Assembly (NCBI GenBank): GCA_937868765.1
Contig: CALMNL010000004.1
Location: forward strand, 1,376,749 to 1,440,748
DNA from: an uncultured Desulfatitalea sp.
GTDB lineage: Bacteria; Desulfobacterota; Desulfobacteria; Desulfobacterales; Desulfosarcinaceae
Length of the DNA stretch: 64,000 bases
Reading direction: 5' to 3'
The notes beneath the pieces are model-generated. The model did not search any database and had not been told where the DNA came from. It worked only from the letters and a program-made list of their open reading frames with translations. A program made the translations under genes and the position numbers. Positions 30,080 to 31,331 of the stretch are shown piece by piece; the stretch's first letter is position 1, and the number at the start of each line of letters is the position of its first letter.

Positions 30080-30742
30080 ATGCAGATCACCCAAAATCTC
30101 TGGCAGGTGGCCGGTCCCGAGCTGACCTCGCCCGAGGATGCCGCCGCATACCTGGTGCGCCTGGGGCCGGCCGCGGCCCTCATCGACGCCGGCTGCGGCG
30201 AAGCCATCCGTGACCTGCTCGCCAACATCGGCCGGGCCCTGCCGCCGGAGGTGCCGGTCACCCACCTGCTGCTCACCCACTGCCATTTCGACCACAGCGG
30301 CGGCGCCGAAGCTGTGCGCGGCCACCTGGGCTGCCGGATCGTCGCCCACCAGCTGGATGCCGCCTTCCTCGAAGCCGGCGACAGCGCGGCCACCGCGGCC
30401 TCCTGGTACGGCCGGCGCATGACGCCGCTGCGCATCGACCTCAAAATCGAAGGTCCCCAGCAAGCTATTCCCGTGGGCCACGGAGAGATCCAGGCCTACC
30501 ACTGCCCGGGCCACTCGCCCGGATCGCTGGTCTTCACGGTCGACATCGATGGCCAGAAAATCCTTTTCGGTCAGGACATCCACGGCCCCCTGCACCCCAG
30601 CCTGCGCTCCAACCGTACCGACTATTTGCGCTCGCTGTAGTTGATCCTGGACCTCGATGCCGACATCCTGTGCGAAGGACACTTCGGGATCTACCATGGC
30701 CGGGAGGAGGTGCGGGATTTCATCAGGTCCTACATGCCGTAG
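30080..30742 (+). pseudogene. MBL-fold metallo-hydrolase interrupted by in-frame amber codon
   Basis: From ATG 30080 (MQITQNLWQVAGPE, ribosome site GAGGAG) the frame has 186 residues up to TAG at 30638-30640, then continues in frame for 33 residues to TAG 30740-30742. The 3' part (LILDLDADILCEGHFGIYHG) is the normal family C terminus and holds the last metal ligand in EGHFG. The upstream part has HCHFDHSGG and GQDIHGP. A protein stopping at the first TAG would lack that ligand. It may be a recent nonsense mutation or a read-through gene; TAG is a normal stop elsewhere in the window. Confidence 0.75.
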
Positions 30743-30874: not shown

Positions 30875-31171
30875 CTAACACGGCTCCGAAGCCGGTGAGC
30901 AGAGCACGAAACCTACCCCATACCAGGAGTCCCTGTAGTCGATGAAAGTTTGATCGAACAAATATTTGTCGCGCCTGTCGTAAACGAAGTCGATGCCCTC
31001 AACGTACACGGTCTCGTCATCCGCTTCCCTTGATTCATCCAGAACCATGCCCAACCGGGGGCCGACTCAGCCAAAGCCCTGTTGGATCAACCGGACAGTT
31101 TTAGCAGAGAAATTTTTCAGTACCTTGCGCAGTTCCGTTTTCGCTGTGTCCGTTATGGTCAGTTCAATCAT
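30875..31171 (-). CDS. HesB/IscA-like protein with in-frame UGA, probable selenoprotein
   Basis: ATG 31171 (ribosome site AAGGAG, 8 bp away) opens a 98-residue HesB-like protein interrupted only by TGA at 31069-31067 (codon 35). The context is LIQQGFG-U-VGPRLGMVLDE; in Cys homologues the same position is Cys in GFGCGGP. The frame resumes perfectly: VYVEGIDFVYDRRDKYLFD, FIDYRDSWYGVGF and two late Cys, ending at TAG 30877-30875. HesB-like selenoproteins are known in deltaproteobacteria. The role is uncertain; the A-type scaffold Cys pattern is incomplete. A possible stem-loop (GCCC-CCGGTT-GGGC) lies right after the UGA but is not a convincing SECIS by eye. Confidence 0.75.
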
Positions 31172-31331
31172 CGCGGGGCTCCTTGGGGGTGTGCGTGTCC
31201 AAACCGATGGTCAACCGTGCCGAGCGCCTAATTTGTATCCGAAATTTAAAATTTCAATTGTTTTTGATATAGTGACCCAACAGGGACGTTCCCGGGCAGC
31301 CATGTCATGGTAGTTCAAGGGAAGTCGCCGG

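Follow-up and report, generated by a model that had tools for sequence, protein, structure and literature searches.

The locus analysed here raises the question of whether a HesB/IscA-like reading frame that is interrupted by a TGA is a broken gene or encodes a selenoprotein. Within the window, by which we mean the whole stretch of 64,000 nucleotides that was analysed, the gene occupies positions 30875..31171 of the minus strand and comprises 98 codons plus TAG; it was recognized computationally, by translation, by its match to Pfam PF01521 and by a predicted IscA fold. The start codon ATG (31171-31169) is preceded at a distance of 7 nt by the ribosome-binding site AAGGAG (31179..31184, minus strand, read directly), and a purine-rich site 5' of the ATG occurs in the seven clade members inspected. 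The sole interruption of the frame is the TGA at codon 35 (31067..31069, minus strand), lying in LIQQGFG-U-VGPRLGMVLDE and aligned with a Cys of the Cys-containing homologues; the protein thereby possesses the motif UxGP, in the form UVGP, with U at the place of the first conserved Cys. After 63 further sense codons the frame ends with a TAG at 30877-30875 (minus strand). The preliminary description had reported such a HesB-like gene, its ATG with a good ribosome site and the 63 codons without other stop, and all of these were found again by reading and translation. An open stretch of 63 codons has a chance of about 0.06 at the base composition of the window, and by itself is weak evidence for decoding through the TGA. 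On the opposite strand an open reading frame of 106 amino acids (30993-31313, plus strand) overlaps the gene; as the substitution pattern suits the minus-strand frame, it is probably not a gene.

Homologues were searched in 389 genomes of relatives, in genome contigs, in 389 genomes of the class and in 395 of the phylum, these sets overlapping. Eight distinct members form the clade of the window gene (the window itself, L047, L019, L049, L048, L050, L051 and L064), the others being 63-75% identical to the window protein; L018, L020, L021 and L022 were not counted, as they are the same places as L047, L049, L050 and L051. In all eight, each of which covers the site, a TGA stands at the position of codon 35. 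We further compared the selection on both parts of the gene in seven members, excluding L064, which was found later. Between the window and six relatives pN/pS amounts to 0.19-0.39 before the TGA and 0.20-0.33 after it, and averaged over the 21 pairs of the seven members the values before the TGA are 0.67 (pS) and 0.21 (pN), compared to 0.62 and 0.17 after it. As the ratio is similar on both sides of the TGA, the part 3' of it is kept as protein. A decayed gene or a different frame in the close homologues had been named as a reason to give up the selenocysteine reading; these homologues keep the frame, the TGA and purifying selection 3' of it.

This similarity of constraint also bears on the possibility that the UGA mostly ends a peptide of 34 residues, with read-through being a minor, selenium-regulated event. 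The decoding of UGA competes with release, which is a general point in favor of such a scheme; constraint 3' of the TGA that is like that on the 5' part indicates that the full-length product matters, and we regard predominant termination as improbable.

Two members of the wider group deserve mention. L048 (2537-2827) is the only clade member without both C-terminal cysteines (Cys91 is replaced by Trp and Cys98 by Val), and it keeps the Sec codon and the hairpin described below. L065 (G476:C132:39208-39384) retains only the part of the gene from codon 39 on, with unrelated AT-rich sequence on its 5' side; it was left out of the clade counts because the region around codon 35 is missing. Within the genus a clade member is present in 5 of the 11 genomes, the other 6 having no match, and together with the remnant this leads us to conclude that the gene is dispensable.

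The convergent neighbour of the gene (30080-30742, plus strand) encodes a metallo-hydrolase with the Lactamase_B superfamily fold (PF00753). It contains an in-frame TAG at 30638-30640, its codon 187, after which 33 codons resembling those of relatives follow until a second TAG. Five close orthologues from the genus were compared, and each of them reads a sense codon at this position. Pyrrolysine was considered and rejected, as no PylS in the genome exceeds the cut-off (27.5 compared to 178.15 bits); a nonsense change, an assembly error or suppression may account for the TAG. The TAG indicates that nonsense codons or errors do occur nearby, and together with the remnant L065 it could be taken to mean that the selenoprotein gene, too, is a pseudogene or carries a sequencing error, its TGA being a nonsense change of a Cys codon. 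Against this stand the identical TGA in all eight clade members, which come from separate genomes, the similar constraint before and after it, and the conservation of a hairpin just downstream. Such an accident is therefore very improbable.

The hairpin is a putative bacterial SECIS element, UGGUUC-UGGAU-GAAUCA, located at 31031..31047 on the minus strand, inside the coding sequence, and identified by comparative pairing and a coupled exchange; 25 nt lie between the UGA and its apical loop. An excerpt of PMC1088965 describes the bacterial SECIS as a hairpin that directly follows the UGA and whose small apical loop contains a G, and the loop UGGAU at this position agrees with that wording. The preliminary description had seen no obvious SECIS by eye, had advised a prediction in the 60 nt after the UGA and had pointed to a GCCC/GGGC stem close to it. 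A conserved hairpin does lie in this region, but it is not this stem, which we rejected as the SECIS: the stem occurs in the minimum-energy fold of the single window sequence and is absent from the consensus fold of 37 homologues, the conserved hairpin being the one at 31047-31031, a short way downstream of the stem.

These homologues, 37 Sec loci, are the best matches fetched and not a random sample. In all of them the five inner pairs of the hairpin are present at the same place, and in 27 of the 37 all six are; in 10 Cys homologues of the same set, only 1-4 of the 6 pairs form. At one place in the stem the complete pair differs between branches, with GTT/GAA (U-A) in 16 rows, GCT/GAG (C-G) in 20 and U-G in one. 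Changes on both sides are confined to this one of the six pairs. Not one of 500 shuffles attained the covariation score (0.240), the proportion of paired cells (95.4%) or the number of cells changed on both sides (15 of 216). The other two of the five covariation measures had no discriminating power: the number of pairs that show a change on both sides was attained in 413 of 500 shuffles, and that of further pair types in all 500. If the partner strand is slid by 1-3 columns, pairing falls to 17-52%. We give this slide test and the contrast to the Cys homologues more weight than the shuffles, a control that is inflated by the relatedness of the sequences. The window has a Ser instead of Pro47, and the hairpin pair affected becomes G-U, so that pairing is retained. 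The DNA identity of codons 43-46 is 0.93 compared to 0.53 for 37 other conserved codons (seven clade members; exact p 0.006).

Stability of the single sequence was rejected as a line of evidence. Taken by itself, the window hairpin shows no exceptional stability, which is matched by 132 of 500 synonymous back-translations, and for nine sequences taken singly 22 to 133 of 500 were as stable as the hairpin. The argument for a SECIS consequently rests on comparison. A search of Rfam at gathering scores gave no match in the window. The hairpin approximately follows UGG[UC]UC-UGGA[UC]-GA[AG]CC, from which some members deviate at single positions, and is a handy mark by which to recognize the family.

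A second set of loci was obtained with the model TIGR01911 (HesB_rel_seleno), searched against the 395 phylum genomes at E 1e-8. One in-frame TGA was found in 113 of the 126 places listed. Only 2 of the 395 genomes pass the curated cut-off of this model, which must therefore be regarded as narrow. Among the 20 loci fetched, the 16 with Sec, two of which are repeats, have at least 5 of the 6 hairpin pairs each, including the five inner pairs in all, compared to 5, 3 and 3 pairs in the 3 Cys loci; the remaining one, L103 (a CSGF form), was unscored, having no motif that the script scored, as was L062, which is not one of these 20. If both sets are combined, all 51 distinct Sec loci have the five inner pairs, compared to a single one of the 12 distinct Cys loci that were scored. 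For these totals L098, L101 and L111, which repeat L070, L076 and L073, were counted once, and the hairpin counts exclude L018, L020, L021, L022, L043 and L063 (the same places as other loci) as well as L065. The one Cys locus with five inner pairs, L100 (G595:C1:85422-85676), differs in its loop, which reads UAGAU and not UGGAU. This locus may be the remnant of a Sec ancestor after a recent change from Sec to Cys; a HesB-like gene of Desulfitobacterium is described as such a remnant in a figure legend of PMC1794560.

Is the organism, a bacterium related to sulfate reducers, equipped to read the codon? The genome searched (5.36 Mb in 18 contigs, 100% completeness by tool estimate) contains SelB (360.6 bits, cut-off 242.25), SelA (614.5 bits), SelD (386.1 bits) and a tRNA-Sec over the cut-off with the anticodon tca (ARAGORN). 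The suspicion that selA, selB, selC or selD might be lacking fails, because SelA, SelB, SelD and tRNA-Sec(UCA) are all there. The same genes bear on the idea that TGA encodes another amino acid throughout the genome. That the frame in the window runs on through the TGA would fit a changed code, but SelA and SelB match their full models with no internal stop, SelD holds exactly one in-frame TGA in its own frame, as expected of a Sec-containing SelD, a tRNA-Sec with the anticodon tca is present, and the homologous gene stops at TGA in L047 and L064. The probability of a changed code is close to negligible.

The selenocysteine reading of the preliminary description is thus strengthened by the machinery, the conserved TGA and the purifying selection 3' of it, and we are highly confident that the gene encodes a HesB-like selenoprotein in which the TGA is read as Sec. 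By inference, a SelB- and SECIS-directed insertion is the near-certain mechanism. SelB carrying Sec-tRNA(UCA) would bind the hairpin 25 nt downstream of the UGA, within the coding sequence, and the ribosome would then read UGA codon 35 as selenocysteine.

A hint towards the function arises from the predicted structure, which was modelled with Cys at position 35 from an alignment of 36 rows. The model has a mean pLDDT of 92, and its best match among solved structures is IscA of E. coli (1r94, TM 0.83, E 4.2e-6), with 1s98, SufA (2d2a) and DsrR (2k4z) as further matches. Sec35 is aligned with a Cys of IscA, which we take to be the first cluster cysteine of IscA. The product would accordingly have the fold of the A-type carriers with Sec at the first conserved Cys and a single Cys at the end, and a dimer could hold iron or an Fe-S cluster via the selenolate and the C-terminal thiolate. 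The third cysteine of IscA is missing from the window protein, which speaks against a carrier role. Our best guess at the function, an A-type carrier of iron or Fe-S clusters that uses a selenolate as ligand, has about an even chance of being correct.

The cysteines also permit a different function, in which the protein is a thiol/selenol redox protein, Sec35 forming a selenenylsulfide with Cys98 (or Cys91) and the IscA fold being a mere scaffold. The clade has no Cys-rich tail, yet Cys91 (30899..30901, minus strand) and Cys98 (30878..30880, minus strand) are both present in 7 of its 8 members, and in L048 they are absent together, as might be expected of a working pair. A 2026 review regards redox functions as likely for most selenoproteins that are still uncharacterised (PMC13188914). 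The other short-tail forms, however, lack Cys91 and have retained no more than a Cys at or near the terminus, and the fold is that of Fe-S carriers. Altogether a redox protein seems unlikely, albeit worth considering beside the carrier that we favor. Tentatively, and with more doubt than confidence, we further propose that the clade could be a distinct tail-less branch; its Sec35 would make up, together with one C-terminal Cys, a site of two ligands or a redox pair, and its function would be unlike that of the canonical Sec and Cys paralogues in the genome.

The genomic context does not decide the function and lends no support to an Fe-S role, because no neighbour is shared: besides the gene itself and its other frames, no conserved gene neighbour was found among the loci compared, with neighbourhoods extending over 3.3 kb in L019 and L064, 4.9 kb in L050 and 6.1 kb in L048. 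The lone similarity, which is weak, is between aldehyde-dehydrogenase-like reading frames, differently placed, in L047 and L051. An origin from a mobile element was rejected, as plasmid matches were limited to 3 of 72,556 records, all from Priestia at 33-35% identity, and no relative was confirmed in viral contigs.

That Sec-containing HesB-like proteins are known in this bacterial group, as had been stated beforehand, is in agreement with the literature. Excerpts of a 2006 study count 11 of them, in several deltaproteobacteria and clostridia (PMC1794560), and the review from 2026 lists the family with the motif UxGP for the same two groups (PMC13188914). According to excerpts of PMC11097638, a HesB-like selenoprotein of Methanococcus maripaludis was identified by mutagenesis and 75Se labelling, nitrogen fixation was not impaired in a disruption mutant, and the role of such proteins is called not clear. 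A single search of the open-licence literature for Desulfatitalea together with a selenoprotein yielded no paper. The selenoprotein family has been known for about twenty years, and the gene in the window adds a divergent member to it.

The position of this member within the family can be described more closely. With the TGA read as an amino acid, the protein matches Fe-S_biosyn (PF01521) with 33.5 bits (cut-off 26.3), and it remains below the cut-offs of both NCBI selenoprotein models, with 44.3 bits for NF038090 (IscA_HesB_Se, cut-off 85) and 36.8 bits for TIGR01911 (cut-off 66.35). It is a divergent relative that can be filed under neither named model, since it is below both cut-offs, and the loss of the gene by an automatic gene caller, as feared initially, is plausible. 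All nine short-tail proteins scored (the window, L047, L051, L064, L052, L066, L067, L068 and L069) are below both cut-offs, so that annotation may miss genes of this kind. The long-tail proteins L053 and L059, by contrast, exceed the cut-off of NF038090. In a tree of 47 proteins the clade of the window forms one group (support 100/99) and stands beside the short-tail Sec forms L052, L066, L067, L068, L069 and L074. The deeper joins are weak (92/33) and unsure because of long branches. L052 (2259-2543), a HesB-like gene with Sec and the same hairpin that shares 40% identity with the window, comes from a record titled Candidatus Neomarinimicrobiota; horizontal transfer or a misplaced contig are possible reasons for its occurrence in a record of another phylum. 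Judged by sequence, the window gene reads as a new member, on a divergent branch and without the Cys-rich tail, of the known HesB-like selenoprotein kind.

In comparison with known systems, the A-type carriers IscA, ErpA and SufA are characterized by a conserved Cys in the middle of the chain and two more in a CGC at the C-terminus. The window protein shares with them the predicted IscA fold (1r94, SufA 2d2a) and PF01521. It differs in having Sec in place of the first Cys and, in place of the CGC, the single Cys98, at which the chain ends, and its scores for the IscA, ErpA and SufA equivalogs are far below the cut-offs. With the HesB-like selenoproteins of TIGR01911 it has in common the Sec at the first conserved Cys, the UxGP motif and the in-frame TGA; the difference lies in the score, well under the curated cut-off. 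A further comparison is offered by the genome itself, which contains a Sec paralogue (L059, G000:C4:109928-110215) and a Cys paralogue (L060), each of which exceeds the cut-off of NF038090, as well as a fourth relative, L062, below the cut-off and without TGA. In L059 the position of the Sec, the hairpin and its place are as in the window gene, whereas it possesses a Cys-rich tail and reaches 98.7 bits with NF038090. The genome thus combines a protein with one Sec and two Cys, a canonical Sec paralogue and relatives with Cys, which allows their ligand sets to be compared.
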